The translations under genes were made by a program, and so were the position numbers. A DNA stretch of 32,556 nucleotides from a virus. The DNA lies in the IMG/VR virus record IMGVR_UViG_3300050014_001325, positions 1-32,556 of that record; one strand, given 5' to 3'. This document shows positions 4,880-12,232 of the stretch, piece by piece. Each line of letters opens with the position of its first letter. Position 1 is the first letter of the stretch. The notes beneath the pieces were generated by a model, which was not told where the DNA came from, did not search any database, and saw only the letters and a list, made by a program, of their open reading frames with translations.

Positions 4880-5326
4880 ATGTCCGATAGCATCCTTGTG
4901 GACGGCGACGCGCTCAAACGGGGTGTCGCCGACGCGTTGTCGCTCTATGTCGGCCCCGGCCGGCGGTTCTCGCGCGAGATGATGGCAAGCGCCACCGGTC
5001 AGGAAGTGCGCACCGTCAAGGGGCATTGCCTGGGCGAGGTGGTCCCCGGACTCGGCGCGATGTTCGCCTATCTGCGCGTGTTGCCGGTCGAGTTCGCCGA
5101 GCATGTGCTGAGCTTCGCCGGACTTGGCGGCGTGCGGCGGCTGGAAGCGGACAACGACGCGCGGCGGGTGATGGCGGAGGTGGCGGAGGGGTTGTCTGTC
5201 CTGGCCGGCGCCATGGCCGATGGGCATATCGATCATACGGAACGCCCCAAGGTCATCAAAGAATTGCGCGAAGCGGCGGTCGCGGCCGAAGGTTTCGCCG
5301 CCGATCTGGAGCGGGTCGGGCGATGA
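4880..5326 (+). CDS. CII-like phage regulatory protein
   Basis: A 148-residue protein from ATG 4880, preceded by GGAGAG. It resembles the phage CII/CP76 regulators of alphaproteobacterial and P2-like prophages. An N-terminal region (residues 8-50) contains the ATGQEVRTVKGHCLGEVVPGL segment, a plausible DNA-binding helix-turn-helix. It is followed by a conserved LPVEFAEHVLSFAGLGGVRRLE segment (about 70-92) and a C-terminal helical region with EVAEGLSVLAGAMADG that could mediate oligomerisation. Its place between cro and the replication genes is where CII genes sit. The stop overlaps the primase start (ATGA). Specific targets are not evident. Confidence 0.55.
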   Translation: MSDSILVDGDALKRGVADALSLYVGPGRRFSREMMASATGQEVRTVKGHCLGEVVPGLGAMFAYLRVLPVEFAEHVLSFAGLGGVRRLEADNDARRVMAEVAEGLSVLAGAMADGHIDHTERPKVIKELREAAVAAEGFAADLERVGR

Positions 5327-6381
5327 CGGCCGACCGGCGCTTTCCCGATTCTCTGCTGGATGACATTCGCGCCCGCGTGTCGCTGGTGACGCTGATCGGG
5401 CGGGATATCCGCTTGACCCGCCAGGGCCGCGAGCATGCCGGGTTGTGTCCGTTCCATTCCGAACGCTCCCCCAGCTTCACCGTGTCCGAAGAAAAGGGCT
5501 TCTTTCATTGCTTCGGCTGCGGGGCGCATGGCGATGCCTTCGGCTATCTGACGATGCGCGGGCGCAGCTTTATCGAGGCGGTCACCGAATTGGCCGATAT
5601 GGCCGGGGTGGCGGTCGAGGGAAGGCGTCCCTCGGCGCCGCTGGCTCCGATGGTCACGCGGCTGTCACCGGAGGATGTCGAGGCCGAACAGGCGGAAGAC
5701 ATCGACAAGGCGCGGGCGCTGTGGGCGTCCACCGTCGAAGGCCGGGGCAGCATCGTCGAGGTTTATCTGCGCGACGGGCGGGGGCTGGATTTGGACGCCA
5801 TCGGCGGCGTTCCCGCCTGCCTGCGCTTGGCCGGACGGCTGGACTATTGGGCGCGAGCCAAGGGCGGCGGAGAACTGCGCGTGGTGTGGAGCGGCCCGGC
5901 CATGGTGGCGCCGCTGGTGACACCCGACCGCCGCATCATCGGGGTACACCGAACATGGCTGCTGCCCGACGGCTCGGATCGGCTGAGGCAGGCCGAAGGC
6001 ATGGCCCTGAAAGGCAAGAAAATGCTGGGAACCCATTCCGGCGCGGTCATTCCCTTGGCGGGGCGTGCCGCGCGCATGCAAGGCGGCGAAGGCATCGAAA
6101 CCAGCCTCTCGGGCTGGTGCGCCGTGCCCGGCCTGCCGGCGGTCTGCCTGGGCAGTCTGGGCAATTTCTCGGGCCGCAAGGACGGCTCGGGCGGCTGGTC
6201 GCCCTGGCCGGGGCTGGCCGATTTCACATGGCTTGAAGACGCGGACGGCAAAGACCCCGCCGACATGCGCGGCAAGGTCGAACGCGGGATGCGCCGTCTG
6301 GTCGCGGCGGGTGTGACGGCGCGGCGGGCCATGCCGCCGCAGGGGATGGACATGAATGATTTGTATCGGAGGCGGGGATGA
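5323..6381 (+). CDS. DnaG-type primase, CHC2 zinc finger and toprim-like domain
   Basis: A 352-residue phage primase. Residues 8-80 hold a CHC2 zinc finger with ligands Cys42, His45, Cys63 and Cys66 (CPFHSERSPSF ... FHCFGCG). The middle is a linker; residues about 190-310 look like a Toprim_3-type catalytic domain, with the glutamate motif GGEGIETSLS (254-263) and acidic residues in WLEDADGKDPAD (303-314). It would synthesise RNA primers for phage replication, working with the SF3 helicase encoded downstream. It lacks the C-terminal helicase-interaction domain of full DnaG and is shorter than host primase. It overlaps both neighbours by ATGA, so it is part of a coupled early operon. Confidence 0.85.
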   Translation: MTADRRFPDSLLDDIRARVSLVTLIGRDIRLTRQGREHAGLCPFHSERSPSFTVSEEKGFFHCFGCGAHGDAFGYLTMRGRSFIEAVTELADMAGVAVEGRRPSAPLAPMVTRLSPEDVEAEQAEDIDKARALWASTVEGRGSIVEVYLRDGRGLDLDAIGGVPACLRLAGRLDYWARAKGGGELRVVWSGPAMVAPLVTPDRRIIGVHRTWLLPDGSDRLRQAEGMALKGKKMLGTHSGAVIPLAGRAARMQGGEGIETSLSGWCAVPGLPAVCLGSLGNFSGRKDGSGGWSPWPGLADFTWLEDADGKDPADMRGKVERGMRRLVAAGVTARRAMPPQGMDMNDLYRRRG

Positions 6382-8018
6382 GTTTCCTGTTCAATAATCT
6401 TCCCGAATTCCGCCGTCATCGTGGTGCCGAACTGGTCATCGACTCTTTTGCCGGAGGCGGCGGCGCTTCGACGGGAATCGAGATGGCCCTCGGCCGCTCG
6501 CCCGATCTTGCCATCAACCACAATGCCGAAGCGGTGGCCATGCACACCGTCAACCATCCGGCGGCCCGGCATTTCTGCCAGAACGTCTGGCAAGTCGATC
6601 CGCTTGAGGTCTGCGGCGGTCGCCCGGTCGGGCTGGCGTGGTTCTCACCCGATTGCAAGCACTTCAGCAAGGCCAAGGGCGGAAAGCCGGTCGAGAAGCG
6701 CATCCGCGATCTGGCCTGGGTGGTTGTGCATTGGGCCAAACAGGTTCGCCCGCGCGTCATCTTTTTGGAAAACGTCGAGGAATTTCAGACCTGGGGGCCG
6801 CTTGACGGCGAGGACCAGCCCGACGCAGAGCGCAAGGGCGAGACCTTTCAGCGCTGGGTCAAAGAACTCCGCCGCCTGGGCTATAAGGTCGCGTGGCGCG
6901 AGCTGCGCGCCTGCGATTACGGCGCACCGACCATCCGCAAGCGGCTGTTCCTGATCGCCCGTTGCGATGGCTTGCCGATCGTCTGGCCTGAGCCGACGCA
7001 TGGCAAGACGGGCTCTGGTCTGCTGCCCTATCGCACCGCCGCCGAAATCATCGATTGGTCGATTCCGTGCCCCTCGATCTTCGAGCGCAAGCGGCCACTG
7101 GCCGAGGCGACGACGGCGCGGATCGCCGCCGGTATGCGGCGCTTCGTGTTCGAGGCATCCGAGCCTTTCATCGTCACCTGCAACCATTCGGGTGATGGCT
7201 TTCGCGGGCAGGGGATGACCGAGCCGTTCAAGACGATCACCTCGGCCCATGACGCCCACGGTCTGGTCGTGCCCTATATCACCAAGTTTCAGGAAAATAG
7301 CATCGGCACCGCGCTTGATGAACCCCTGCATACCGTCATGGCCGGCGCTCCGCGCCACGGCCTGGTGACAGCCTTCCTTGCCAAGCATTATGGCGGCGTG
7401 GTTGGACATGGCGTCGAACGGCCGATAGGCGCGGTCACCACGATTGACCACCACTCCGTCGTGACCGCTCAAATCCAGACCTATTACGGCGCCAAGCGCG
7501 ATGGAGAGGTGCGCGGCTGTGCGGCGGATGGCCTGCTGGGAACACAGACCACCGAAAACCGGCATGCCTTGGTGACCAGCCAGATTGTGAAACTGCGCGG
7601 CACCTGCAAGGACGGTCAACCGATCCTGGCGCCGCTGCCGACGATCACCGCCGGCGGCACTCATATCGGCGAGGTCCGCGCCTTCCTGATCAAATATTAC
7701 GGCAGTTCCGAGCATGGCCAGAGCTTGCGCGATCCCCTGCACACGGTCACCGCCAAACATCGCATGGGGCTGGTGACCATCGAGGGCCAGGACTGGCAGG
7801 TGGTCGATATCGGCATGCGCATGCTCAGCCCGCGCGAGCTGTTCCGCGCCCAAGGGTTTCCCGAGGGCTATGTCATCGATTTCGAGCATAACGGCCGTCC
7901 GCTGTCGAAAGCGGCGCAGGTGCGGATGTGCGGCAACAGCGTCTGCCCGCCCATCGCGGCGGCGCTGGTCCGGGCCAATTATGTTCCTGCCGAGCAGATG
8001 GCGGAGGCTGCGGAATGA
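6378..8018 (+). CDS. C5-cytosine DNA methyltransferase with tandem-repeat insert
   Basis: A 546-residue methyltransferase that transfers a methyl group from SAM to cytosine C5. Motif I is DSFAGGGGAS (22-31). The catalytic motif is SPDCKHFS (90-97) with Cys93; the usual Pro before the Cys is Asp. Motif VI is ENV (131-133) and motif VIII lies around YGAPTIRKRLFLIA (181-194). The C-terminal motifs SPRELFRAQGFP (484-495) and GNSVCPPIAAALV (519-531) follow. Between them, residues about 262-466 consist of six degenerate repeats of 32-37 residues, each ending in GLV or a variant. No restriction enzyme lies nearby, so it is probably an orphan phage methylase used against host restriction or for regulation. 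It overlaps the primase and the next gene by ATGA. Confidence 0.88.
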   Translation: MSFLFNNLPEFRRHRGAELVIDSFAGGGGASTGIEMALGRSPDLAINHNAEAVAMHTVNHPAARHFCQNVWQVDPLEVCGGRPVGLAWFSPDCKHFSKAKGGKPVEKRIRDLAWVVVHWAKQVRPRVIFLENVEEFQTWGPLDGEDQPDAERKGETFQRWVKELRRLGYKVAWRELRACDYGAPTIRKRLFLIARCDGLPIVWPEPTHGKTGSGLLPYRTAAEIIDWSIPCPSIFERKRPLAEATTARIAAGMRRFVFEASEPFIVTCNHSGDGFRGQGMTEPFKTITSAHDAHGLVVPYITKFQENSIGTALDEPLHTVMAGAPRHGLVTAFLAKHYGGVVGHGVERPIGAVTTIDHHSVVTAQIQTYYGAKRDGEVRGCAADGLLGTQTTENRHALVTSQIVKLRGTCKDGQPILAPLPTITAGGTHIGEVRAFLIKYYGSSEHGQSLRDPLHTVTAKHRMGLVTIEGQDWQVVDIGMRMLSPRELFRAQGFPEGYVIDFEHNGRPLSKAAQVRMCGNSVCPPIAAALVRANYVPAEQMAEAAE

Positions 8019-8602
8019 CTGACGCAAACCCTCAAGGCATCTTCTCAGACCTGTCTCCCAGCCATTACGGCGTCATCCTCGCCGATCCGCCATGGTCTTT
8101 CGCTGTCCGATCCGCGAAGGGCACAGGGCGGAGTGCCGAGAAGCATTATCCGACCATGCCGATTGCCGAAATCAAGGCGCTTCCCGTCGCCGATCTGGCG
8201 GCGAAGGACGCGGTTTTGTTGATGTGGGTCACAGACCCATTTCTTGAGGCCGGGTTCGACGTGCTGAAGGCCTGGGGCTTTAAGTTCAAGACGGTCGGCT
8301 TCTATTGGGGCAAGACCAACAAGAATGGTTCTCCCTTCACTGGGACTGGATATTGGACGCGCGCCAACCCTGAACAGTGCCTGCTGGCGACGCGTGGACA
8401 CCCCAAGCGCCAGGATAAAGGCGTTCCACGCCTCATCATGTCGCAGCGGCGCGAACATTCGCGCAAGCCGGATGAAGTCTATGGGCTGGTCGAACGTCTT
8501 TGCTCCGGCCCCTATGTCGAGTTGTTCGCCCGTTCGGCCCGGCCGGGGTGGGACGCCTGGGGAAATCAGGTTGGGCGGTTCGCGCTCGATGGGGTGGTTT
8601 AA
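8015..8602 (+). CDS. MT-A70 family N6-adenine methyltransferase
   Basis: A 195-residue protein with the catalytic motif DPPW (residues 24-27), followed by the typical MT-A70 layout: a HYPTMPIAEIKALPV segment, LLMWVT, a TGYWTRANPEQCLLATRG segment, SRKPDEVY, and PGWDAWGNQV at the end. It is expected to methylate adenine N6 in DNA. ATG at 8015 overlaps the stop of the cytosine methyltransferase, so the two are translationally coupled and probably act together to modify phage DNA. A longer upstream reading is only an extension into the previous gene. No cognate endonuclease is visible. Confidence 0.88.
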   Translation: MTDANPQGIFSDLSPSHYGVILADPPWSFAVRSAKGTGRSAEKHYPTMPIAEIKALPVADLAAKDAVLLMWVTDPFLEAGFDVLKAWGFKFKTVGFYWGKTNKNGSPFTGTGYWTRANPEQCLLATRGHPKRQDKGVPRLIMSQRREHSRKPDEVYGLVERLCSGPYVELFARSARPGWDAWGNQVGRFALDGVV

Positions 8603-8605
8603 GCC

Positions 8606-10123
8606 ATGGCGAAAGATGATGTTGCGGCGGCCGTCCAGGCTGCGCCCGCATGGCGGCCGAAGTCCTTCGACGAAAGCGATCCTCTGGATTATCGCCTGGG
8701 CTGGCTGCCGAGGAACGACGCGGGCAATGCCGAGCGGCTGCTGACCCGCTATGGACAGGACTTGATCTATGTCGCCGATGTCGGCTGGCACTGGTGGGAC
8801 GGCAAGCGGTGGTCGTATGAGCATGGCCTGACCATGGCCAACCGGCTTGCGCATGAGACGGTCAGGTGCATCTACGACGAATGCACCTCGATGCAGGATC
8901 AGCGCGGCGAAAAGGCGGTGCTGCCCAAGATGATCGAGGACCATTTCAAATGGGCGGCGGTCAGCGGCAATTCTCAGCGGATGTCGGCGATGCTGACGGT
9001 GGCGCAGCATTATTGCACCCGCCGGCCGTCCGATCTGGACGCCAATCCGCTGTTGCTCAATCTGGCGAATGGCACCTTGGATTTGACTGACTCACGGTGC
9101 GAGACGGTGCGTCCGCATGACCGCGATGACTTGATCACCAAGATCATCAATATCGACTTCGACCCGGTCATTCGCTGCCCGGAATTCCTTAAGTTCATGA
9201 AGGACATCCTGCCCGATCAGGAGGTCATCAACTTCCTTCAGCGCAGCTTCGGCTATTCGCTGACCGGCGACATTTCAGAGCAATGCCTGTGGTTTTTCTA
9301 TGGCACCGGGGCAAACGGCAAATCCACCCTGGTCAATGTGATGGCCCGCATCCTTGGCCCATATTCGATGAACCTGCCATTTTCCTCGCTGGTCGCCGAT
9401 GACCGCAAGCGCGGGTCGGAGGCGTCTCCCGATCTGGCGCGATTGCCCGGAGCGCGCATGGTGCGCGCCTCGGAGCCGGAAAAGGGGGCCAAGCTGGGGG
9501 AGGCGGTGGTCAAGCTGATCACCGGCGAGGAGGAGATGACCGCGCGCCATCTGAACCACGGCTTCTTCGACTTCATGCCGCAGTTCAAGCTGTTCCTCTC
9601 CGGCAATCATCGCCCGACCATTCGCGGGCAGGACGAAGGGATTTGGCGCCGCATCCGGCTGGTGCCGTTCACCGTGTCCATCCCGAAAGAAAATCGAGAT
9701 CAGAAGCTTGGCGAGAAGTTATGGGCGGAGCGGGCCGGCATCCTGGCTTGGATGGTCGAGGGTTATCTGCATTGGCAGTATGACGGGCTGAATCCGCCGG
9801 AGGCGGTGTTGGCGGCAACCGGCGAATATCGCGAGGACAGCGACCCCTTGGGACTATTCCTGGGGTCTTGGACCGAGCGGGTGGAACAAGGTGCGGTGCA
9901 GGGCAAGCGGCTTTACGAAGCCTATGCCCTGTGGTGCCAGGACAACGCAGTCGAGCCCATGAGCAACACGCTGTTCGGCCGCATGCTGACCGAGCGCGGA
10001 TTTTCAAAGGATCGATCCGGCGTGGTCACCTATCGCGGCATTCAGTTGTCGCAGGAGGCCGTGGATGCGCTTGACCAGCGCGACCGCCGCCGCCATGCCA
10101 AAAAGGGTGGCGATGACGACTGA
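8606..10123 (+). CDS. P4-type SF3 replicative helicase (D5_N/primase C-terminal)
   Basis: A 505-residue protein of the phage/plasmid P4-alpha/D5 helicase family. The N-terminal part (about 45-225) resembles D5_N. The SF3 ATPase follows, with Walker A GTGANGKST (233-241), an acidic/Walker B-like region around VRASEPEKGAKLGE (286-299), sensor-1 Asn in LFLSGNHRP (329-337), and an arginine-finger region GIWRRIRLVPF (345-355). The C-terminus (about 385-490) is a winged-helix-like DNA-binding region. It lacks the primase zinc module, which is supplied by the separate gene at 5323. It likely unwinds the origin and acts as replication initiator; the iteron cluster directly downstream is a natural candidate for its target. 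Confidence 0.88.
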   Translation: MAKDDVAAAVQAAPAWRPKSFDESDPLDYRLGWLPRNDAGNAERLLTRYGQDLIYVADVGWHWWDGKRWSYEHGLTMANRLAHETVRCIYDECTSMQDQRGEKAVLPKMIEDHFKWAAVSGNSQRMSAMLTVAQHYCTRRPSDLDANPLLLNLANGTLDLTDSRCETVRPHDRDDLITKIINIDFDPVIRCPEFLKFMKDILPDQEVINFLQRSFGYSLTGDISEQCLWFFYGTGANGKSTLVNVMARILGPYSMNLPFSSLVADDRKRGSEASPDLARLPGARMVRASEPEKGAKLGEAVVKLITGEEEMTARHLNHGFFDFMPQFKLFLSGNHRPTIRGQDEGIWRRIRLVPFTVSIPKENRDQKLGEKLWAERAGILAWMVEGYLHWQYDGLNPPEAVLAATGEYREDSDPLGLFLGSWTERVEQGAVQGKRLYEAYALWCQDNAVEPMSNTLFGRMLTERGFSKDRSGVVTYRGIQLSQEAVDALDQRDRRRHAKKGGDDD

Positions 10124-10127
10124 ACTA

Positions 10128-10191
10128 TCCAACCCTCCGCCCACCGTCCGCATTTTTGTGGTGTGTTTTCAATGCGGTGCGGAGGGTTGGA
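10128..10191. repeat. Long imperfect inverted repeat after the helicase gene
   Basis: A perfect 13-bp outer stem (10128-10140 with 10179-10191, TCCAACCCTCCGC and its complement) encloses an inner 7-bp stem (CCGCATT 10148-10154 with AATGCGG 10171-10177) and a 16-base loop. It begins five bases after the helicase stop codon and its right arm runs into the first iteron. It could serve as a transcription terminator or an origin cruciform; no T-tract follows. Confidence 0.6.
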
Positions 10192-10359
10192 CAGTTCGGA
10201 CAGTTTCCCCGTGGGAGGCCTTTATGTGCGCGTACATACAAGACTCTAACCTGTAAAACTGTCCAACTGTCCGAAAGAAGGTCTAAGAGGTCATCAAGTT
10301 ATTGAGTTTAAACGGTTTTTCTCTCGGACAGTTTGCTTTTGAACTGTCCAGCACTGTCC
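10189..10359. repeat. Cluster of 8-bp iterons GGACAGTT/AACTGTCC, putative replication origin
   Basis: Six perfect copies of GGACAGTT or its complement are seen at 10189, 10198, 10257, 10265, 10326 and 10342. A seventh copy with one change (CACTGTCC) is at 10352. They are arranged as pairs 9, 8 and 10 bases apart in both orientations, and several are extended (TCGGACAGTTT). The intervening DNA (about 10206-10255 and 10275-10320) is AT-richer than its surroundings. The cluster lies between the SF3 helicase gene and the next gene, with no convincing coding capacity. Confidence 0.65.
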
Positions 10360-10372
10360 GAAGGGGGATGTC

Positions 10373-10987
10373 ATGGCAAAAGAGGCACGGGATATCGAAG
10401 ACTTGATCGTTTGGGCCTATCACGTCGAGCAAGCGGACAAGGCCGGGCGGGGCGGTTGGGGTTTGGGCGGCGGGTCGGATAGCATTCTGCGGGTCGAGCG
10501 GGCGGCGCTGGCGGGTTCGGCCGGTGGGACGACGGGGAACGTCTGCCACCCCGACGCAGAAGCCATCCATGCCGCCGTGCTGGGGCTGTCCCGCTGGGAA
10601 CGGGCGCTGGTCATCAGCCACGGCCACGCCAGTTCGCGGCCGGATTGGATGACGGGGGCGCGGCTGGTCATGGCGGCGGTCGAAGGCGTGCGGGGAAATC
10701 CCAAGCGGATATACGATCAGGGCCGCAACGTGATCGGTCATCAGGTGCGCCCGGCCTGCGAACTGGCGGCGGGCGAAGTGCATTATGCTCCGATGGGTCG
10801 GGATGTCGGCGAGTGGTTCTCGGACTTGGTCGACGGTCACCGGGTGATGTATGCCGCGTGGCGTGACGCCCTGGCGCGGCTGGCTTGCGAGTTGGATGGG
10901 GCGTTGGGCGATTGCCGGCCGGTGGGTCCGGCGGCTCCGGCGCGGCCGTGGGAGGCGGGGGTGGACGTTGGTCGAAAAGCCGCTTGA
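10373..10987 (+). CDS. Phage protein of unknown function at the early/late boundary
   Basis: A 204-residue protein with a strong ribosome binding site (AAGGGGG) 6 bases before ATG 10373. The N-terminal 20 residues are acidic helix (EARDIEDLIVWAYHVEQADK), followed by a Gly-rich loop. Two helical stretches (about 60-105 and 135-175) follow, and the tail is Pro/Ala-rich. I do not recognise a domain. Its position directly after the replication genes and before the terminase module is where late-gene activators or antiterminators often sit, but the sequence shows no zinc finger or known antiterminator motif, so that is only positional inference. Confidence 0.6.
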   Translation: MAKEARDIEDLIVWAYHVEQADKAGRGGWGLGGGSDSILRVERAALAGSAGGTTGNVCHPDAEAIHAAVLGLSRWERALVISHGHASSRPDWMTGARLVMAAVEGVRGNPKRIYDQGRNVIGHQVRPACELAAGEVHYAPMGRDVGEWFSDLVDGHRVMYAAWRDALARLACELDGALGDCRPVGPAAPARPWEAGVDVGRKAA

Positions 10988-11668: not shown

Positions 11669-12232
11669 ATGGGTCGCTCGCCGTTACCGCCGGGGGAACG
11701 CGCGCTTCGCGGCAATGCTGGAAAGCGTAAGCCCCGGACGGTGACGTCGGCGGGTTCGCGCGGGGATTACATCGAGCCGCCGCATTGGCTGAAGAACCCC
11801 ACCGCCCGCGCCGAGTGGGACCGGATCGTCCCCGAGTTGATGCGGATGCGGGTGCTGGCCGGAATGGATCACGCCCCGCTGGGCATGTACTGCCAAGCCT
11901 TCGCCTCGTGGGTCGGAGCACATGCCGTGATCGCCGAAAAGGGCTCGACCTACCTGACGCAGAGCAAGCACGGCGAGATGGAGCGCATTCGCCCCGAGGT
12001 CAAGATCGCCGCCGAAGCCGAGCGCACCATGCTGCGCTACGGTCAGCAATTCGGGCTGGCTCCGCTCTCTCGAACCAAGGTCGCCAGCGGATTCCTCGCC
12101 AATGGACAGCAGTTGACCTTGCCGGGCTTCGATGGGCCGGCGCCACCGACTCAGCAGGGCGAGAGCAATGGCCACACCATCTCGGCGCAAGCCGCGAAAG
12201 ACGACGCCGGACAGTTCTTCGGCTACCACTGA
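11669..12232 (+). CDS. terS: Terminase small subunit, P27 family
   Basis: A 187-residue protein of the P27/phiE125-type terminase small subunit. It has a basic N-terminus (LRGNAGKRKPR), then the PPHWLKNPTARAEWDRIVPEL segment typical of the family (about 38-58), a helical oligomerisation region, and RPEVKIAAEAERTMLRYGQQFGLAP-like sequence (108-132). It recognises phage DNA at the packaging start and regulates TerL. AAGGA precedes ATG 11669. It overlaps the TerL start by 65 bases, which is long for a phage overlap but fixed by the absence of any later in-frame start for TerL. Confidence 0.9.
   Translation: MGRSPLPPGERALRGNAGKRKPRTVTSAGSRGDYIEPPHWLKNPTARAEWDRIVPELMRMRVLAGMDHAPLGMYCQAFASWVGAHAVIAEKGSTYLTQSKHGEMERIRPEVKIAAEAERTMLRYGQQFGLAPLSRTKVASGFLANGQQLTLPGFDGPAPPTQQGESNGHTISAQAAKDDAGQFFGYH

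Follow-up and report, generated by a model that had tools for sequence, protein, structure and literature searches.

A candidate P4/SaPI-like replication origin directly downstream of the helicase gene of an apparently temperate phage, with iteron words that co-vary with the helicase winged helix

A cluster of short repeats immediately 3' of a P4-type helicase gene is, with a probability that we put at about 0.85 from comparison with related phages, a phage replication origin of the P4/SaPI-like kind, bound by the winged helix of the helicase itself. The DNA analysed (the window) comprises an entire virus record (32,556 bp), which is possibly a fragment of a phage. The array spans 10123-10359 and holds about 11 sites of the iteron GGANRGTT, that is, several short iterons in cis and in both orientations. 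This kind of system is known, and the window is assigned to it by sequence, fold and position; the new points are the overall layout, a word that drifts together with the recognition helix, and an alternating tract at the centre. The features are as follows.

5026..6381, + strand: DnaG-type primase, a separate gene, with CHC2 zinc finger, DUF7146 and weak Toprim (Pfam)
8606..10123, + strand: P4/D5-type SF3 helicase gene, 505 aa, proposed initiator (Pfam D5_N, TIGR01613, hhalign, AF2)
9845..10045, + strand: C-terminal winged-helix domain, residues 414-480, proposed iteron reader (AF2 domain model, Foldseek)
9962..9994, + strand: putative recognition helix, residues 453-463, SNTLFGRMLTE (model and column association)
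10123..10149, - strand: left triplet of degenerate or ancestral iterons, GGATAGTT, GGAGGGTT and GGACGGTG, the last (10142-10149) weak (8,11 spacing as in the relative L004; GGANRGTT matches)
10181..10205, + strand: inner left triplet, GGAGGGTT, GGACAGTT and GGACAGTT, spacing 8 and 9
10206..10256, no strand: central spacer, 51 bp, between inward-facing tandem iterons
10223..10240, no strand: alternating purine-pyrimidine tract TATGTGCGCGTACATACA, 18 bp, Z-DNA-prone (longest-run search and shuffles)
10257..10272, - strand: inner right pair of GGACAGTT, opposed to the left triplet
10273..10325, no strand: AT-rich spacer, candidate melting region (36% GC vs 63% in the window)
10326..10359, mixed strands: right outer sites, GGACAGTT (+, 10326), GGACAGTT (-, 10342) and GGACAGTG (-, 10352)

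Upstream of the helicase gene lie genes for an S24/HTH repressor, a weak CII-like protein, the DnaG-type primase and two DNA methyltransferases, and downstream of the array come a phrog_9306 protein, an HNH nuclease, terminase, portal, an S49 protease and capsid. With repressor and CII-like genes on one side and terminase, portal and capsid genes on the other, the virus looks like a temperate tailed phage. The product of 5026..6381 matches Zn_ribbon_DnaG (3.7e-30), DUF7146 (7.3e-18) and, below its cut-off, Toprim_3 (0.0012), and is likely the partner of the 505-aa helicase. The two methyltransferases, one a C5-cytosine enzyme and the other an MT-A70 adenine enzyme, occupy 6378-8602 between the primase and helicase genes.

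The initial annotation had called the gene beside the repeats a P4-type helicase, which profile comparisons confirm: the protein scores 8.7e-31 against Pfam D5_N and 268 bits against NCBIfam TIGR01613 (P4-family primase_Cterm; cut-off 108.7). It aligns with P4 alpha by hhalign (prob 98.9) over a region that includes the C-terminus, and its profile matches structure 7ola, the SaPI5 protein (E 2.5e-21). The AlphaFold2 model has a mean pLDDT of 92. The modelled C-terminal domain matches the P4 origin-binding domain 1ka8 (Foldseek prob 0.99) and the RFX1 DNA-binding domain 1dp7 (E 6e-4), so that, as modelled, the helicase C-terminus is folded like the origin-binding domain of P4. In the AlphaFold2 model, the third helix of the winged helix is made up of residues 454-463. 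The nearest fold to this phage domain is the eukaryotic RFX domain (1dp7, RFX1 on DNA), ahead of that of P4.

The six exact copies of GGACAGTT reported earlier were found again at 10189+, 10198+, 10257-, 10265-, 10326+ and 10342-, as was the near-copy GGACAGTG at 10352-, all within the non-coding stretch that separates the stop codon of the helicase gene (10123) from the ATG at 10373. These 7 sites stand, whereas the extent first given to the cluster (10189-10359) was too short, as the array reaches left to 10123, where it begins at the stop codon and thus directly downstream of the helicase gene, and comprises about 11 sites. The window holds 7 exact copies of GGACAGTT vs 0.46 expected, a count reached by 0/100 dinucleotide shuffles, and six of the seven are confined to 161 bp. 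The seventh copy (12209-12216) stands alone, where the frames for the small and large terminase subunits overlap. Leaving the two middle bases of GGACAGTT free to vary gives GGANRGTT and adds the sites at 10123, 10131 and 10181, so that the left side carries GGATAGTT (10123-), GGAGGGTT (10131-), a weak GGACGGTG (10142-) and GGAGGGTT (10181+). We counted these left sites in the array because their positions match, site for site, a pure GGAGGGTT array in the closest relative found in genomes (L004, a Telmatospirillum MAG, helicase 66% identical), whose spacing the weak site at 10142 also fits. No second GGANRGTT cluster was found in the window, where the remaining matches are singletons (the record may be incomplete), GC skew across the window had no clear turning point at the array, and a promoter and terminator scan gave nothing clear there. 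A literature letter search for GGACAGTT matched only unrelated papers.

The array of L004 lies in the same place and consists only of GGAGGGTT, in 12 copies. Its start-to-start gaps (8,11,38,8,9,54,9,58,17,10,9) are nearly those of the window (8,11,39,8,9,59,8,61,16,10) despite the other 8-mer. The initial annotation held that absence of the repeats from close relatives would speak against an origin; the exact 8-mer is indeed absent from L004, yet an array is present there with nearly the same spacings and another 8-mer. The window keeps two copies of GGAGGGTT on the left side of its array. Among 53 dereplicated helicases with GGANRGTT arrays, either GGACAGTT or GGAGGGTT dominates most arrays, and those clearly mixed (GGACAGTT/GGAGGGTT) are the window (6/2), L099 (4/4) and L131 (2/1), which from their sequences look like a word change in progress on a fixed scaffold.

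Arrays in this position are common among relatives chosen by protein only. In a motif-blind set of 79 helicase relatives from viral contigs, counting as an array a commonest 8-mer with at least 4 copies in the 600 bp after the helicase gene, we found arrays 3' of the helicase in 53/79, leaving about one third with no clear array there; the final 600 bp within the gene gave 0/79, and mononucleotide shuffles (best of 20) reached the threshold in 2/79. For a second, more distant helicase set the figures were 15/30 vs 2/30. The iteron words vary by phage and include GGACAGTT, GGAGGGTT, GCGAGGGT, ATGAGGGT, TGGAAGGA, GGGAGGAT, TGTCGGGT and others. When loci were instead found by DNA pattern, the end of a helicase gene adjoined 4/97 two-site pairs, 21/30 groups of 5-6 sites and 33/55 groups of at least 7 sites, and a P4-type helicase occurred somewhere in the locus for 45/55 of the last class. 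Most arrays with no P4-type helicase in the locus are cut off by the locus or contig end, the exceptions being L029, L066 and L067. Clusters of 4-6 GGACAGTT sites with no P4-type helicase found nearby (L029, L066, L032/L093 and L067) may be served by another initiator, or the word may have an unrelated use there.

Neighbouring iterons of the same orientation show a start-to-start distance that peaks at 9 bp. Taking as a unit two tandem pairs separated by 40-135 bp, we counted 24 units facing inward, 1 outward and 6 the same way, and inward-facing tandem iterons flank the central spacer in 44/50 dereplicated arrays. In the sequences compared, the layout is thus kept across phages while the word differs: 9-bp tandem repeats opposed across a spacer. 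If other self-loading helicases are a guide, such inward-facing geometry suits two opposed helicase rings.

If the helicase reads the iteron with its winged helix, then the word and that domain should change together, a check that the initial annotation had proposed for relatives and whose result was positive for the main set and weakly so for a more distant one. In 58 dereplicated helicase-array pairs, with iteron registers set automatically and relatedness partly controlled, iteron similarity correlated with winged-helix identity after helicase-core identity was removed (partial r 0.19, 0/2000 permutations); with core identity, after removal of the winged helix, the value was 0.10 (165/2000 permutations). 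The more distant set gave 0.149 for the former correlation (52/2000 permutations). The strongest co-varying 40-residue stretch was 420-460, with 440-480 also among the best, and the best 3/455 columns were T455, G458 and S453, all in the recognition helix, the top column reaching 0.264 vs 0.249 for the 95% level of the maximum-statistic null. These comparisons indicate that the iteron word co-varies with the recognition helix of the winged helix, which supports recognition of the one by the other. They also supply dozens of naturally paired winged-helix recognition helices and DNA words, and some arrays (the window, L099 and L131) are mixed and apparently switching word; with such pairs and mixed arrays in hand, a joint change of specificity in initiator and origin becomes testable. 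Since the layout is common to many related phages and the words track the predicted reader domain, origins become predictable from sequence and could be located in many temperate phages and prophages of which only the sequence is known.

A simple code linking helix to word was tried and rejected. The helix pattern [ST]xTx[FLW]G went with GGANRGTT in 11/16 vs 1/41 cases in the first set, by a rule written after seeing the data, and in the second set the rule held for 0/4, the four helicases with this pattern having TGATAGT or ACGGGT-type words. We do not claim the rule as a code because of this second result.

The central spacer of the window contains TATGTGCGCGTACATACA at 10223-10240, the only alternating purine-pyrimidine run of at least 14 in the 32.5-kb window; a run of 18 was reached by 0/200 dinucleotide shuffles of this spacer. 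Many arrays have strictly alternating runs of up to 32 bp between their inward-facing groups. Using 50 representatives at 70% core identity, we found runs of at least 12 in 21/44 central spacers vs 1/83 of the remaining spacers in these arrays (Fisher p 7e-11), and a paired test of central against other spacers gave 37 vs 2. The mean length of central spacers is slightly greater (68 vs 49 bp), a difference that cannot explain the excess of alternating runs. Motif-selected loci, some of them shared with the first set, had such runs in 21/54 central vs 6/105 other spacers, and the mean alternating run in the second helicase set was 11.0 vs 6.6. The tract is not universal, as a long alternating run is absent from about half of the arrays. 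Palindromy or cruciform formation was rejected as the constraint on the central tract, being no higher than in alternation-preserving shuffles (mean z -0.06).

Alternating CG, TG and CA steps are Z-DNA-prone. Tentatively, and with some doubt, we suggest that the central spacer is kept as an alternating Z-DNA-prone tract in which shape or torsional behaviour, rather than sequence or palindromy, is selected, and which would make a supercoil-driven switch to a non-B form where two opposed helicase rings start opening the DNA. Formation of Z-DNA at the tract, or a role for it, is put forward here as a hypothesis. Our searches of the open-access literature returned nothing relevant on Z-DNA or alternating tracts at such phage origins, and as far as these searches show the central tract is an undescribed feature of them; if functional, it would tie a non-B DNA structure to initiation.

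Drawing on what comparison of sequences has established (the array and its position after the helicase gene across phages, the inward 9-bp geometry, the P4-type fold and an iteron that co-varies with the recognition helix), we infer physical binding, double-ring loading, melting and origin activity. Positions 10123-10359 would be the replication origin of a temperate phage, or its core, and the 505-residue helicase would bind the GGANRGTT iterons through its C-terminal winged helix. By analogy, a pair of opposed helicase rings would be loaded onto the inward-facing tandem repeats, the DNA between the rings, with the alternating tract and the AT-rich spacer, would be opened, and the DnaG-type primase (5026-6381) would prime synthesis. 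The co-variation, the 1ka8 fold and the occurrence of arrays 3' of such helicases whatever gene follows all favour the original reading of the repeats as a helicase-bound phage origin.

The known replicons resemble the window to different degrees. Like P4, it has an SF3 helicase of the P4 family whose C-terminal winged helix shows the 1ka8 fold, 8-bp iterons in tandem and opposed groups, and a block of iterons immediately following the helicase gene. It differs in its iteron, GGANRGTT as against GGTGAACA in P4, which bears out the earlier remark that the word is not that of P4; in having a single array (the record may be incomplete) rather than ori and crr; in having its primase as a separate gene rather than fused to the helicase; and in belonging to a tailed phage that encodes terminase, portal and capsid itself, whereas P4 is a satellite. 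The window is therefore not a P4 replicon in the narrow sense of ori plus crr and a fused primase. Streptococcus phage Sfi21 has its annotated origin, according to the note in its record a 302-bp non-coding stretch, directly 3' of a P4-type primase/helicase gene, with four copies of the short repeat GTAACTAA; it differs in its iteron and is an AT-rich phage. Repeated words also lie directly 3' of the helicase in phi105, PSA and AcaML1. SaPI origins immediately follow the rep gene, and in SCCmec the D5-type helicase Cch2 uses its C-terminal domain to bind iterons, three AAGTG sites, downstream of its own gene (PMC7581432). The window resembles SaPI Rep and SCCmec Cch2, both self-loading helicases, in having iterons directly downstream of the initiator helicase gene, the 505-aa helicase being the predicted initiator here, and differs from them in iteron sequence and number and in that they belong to satellites and cassettes, not tailed phages.

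It is unlikely, though worth weighing, that the array is a cis-acting accessory like P4 crr, required by the same helicase for replication or serving to control it, with initiation elsewhere in the genome. The region directly 3' of alpha in P4 is indeed crr, with GGTGAACA repeats, and the annotated ori (9086-9809) lies about 4.5 kb away; against this, the window has only singletons besides the array, and the annotated origin of Sfi21 and the origins of SaPIs lie in this very place. As the record may be incomplete, a second site could lie outside it. We consider it very improbable that the sites have nothing to do with replication and are instead operators through which a regulator controls the gene at 10373 or the late operon, an alternative that the initial annotation had raised in respect of that gene. 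The last site does end 13 bp before the ATG at 10373, but the gene after the array is unrelated to the 10373 protein in 44/67 arrays while the helicase is the constant neighbour, and the iteron tracks the helicase winged helix. Moreover, no sigma-70-like promoter was found around the array, and the 10373 protein had no Pfam match.

We give slightly less credence still to a hairpin or cruciform, acting as a terminator or as a stem-loop origin of the pRN1 type, in place of protein-bound iterons. A 19-nt inverted repeat, 95% complementary, joins 10122-10140 to 10179-10197, and the origin of plasmid pRN1 is a 100-nt stem-loop downstream of the SF3 replicase gene (PMC4234260). As proposed for the window, the pRN1 origin follows a replication gene whose product has an SF3 helicase and a winged helix (PMC4234260), but it is a stem-loop and has no iterons. 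The inverted repeat in the window arises because iterons there are opposed, other arrays show other combinations of orientation, and the central tracts are, as noted, no more palindromic than their shuffles. The helicase-bound origin is thus the reading that we prefer.

Two further observations concern the arrays themselves. Some arrays lie inside very long open frames that hold helicase-like or polymerase-like sequence, with no clear intergenic gap (L119:5133-5414, L042:3575-3831 and L262:9150-9423). A short T/C-rich stretch (TTTCCCC or similar) is often found at the edge of the central spacer after the inner left iterons, at 10204-10210 in the window and also in L110, L134, L137, L138 and L140.
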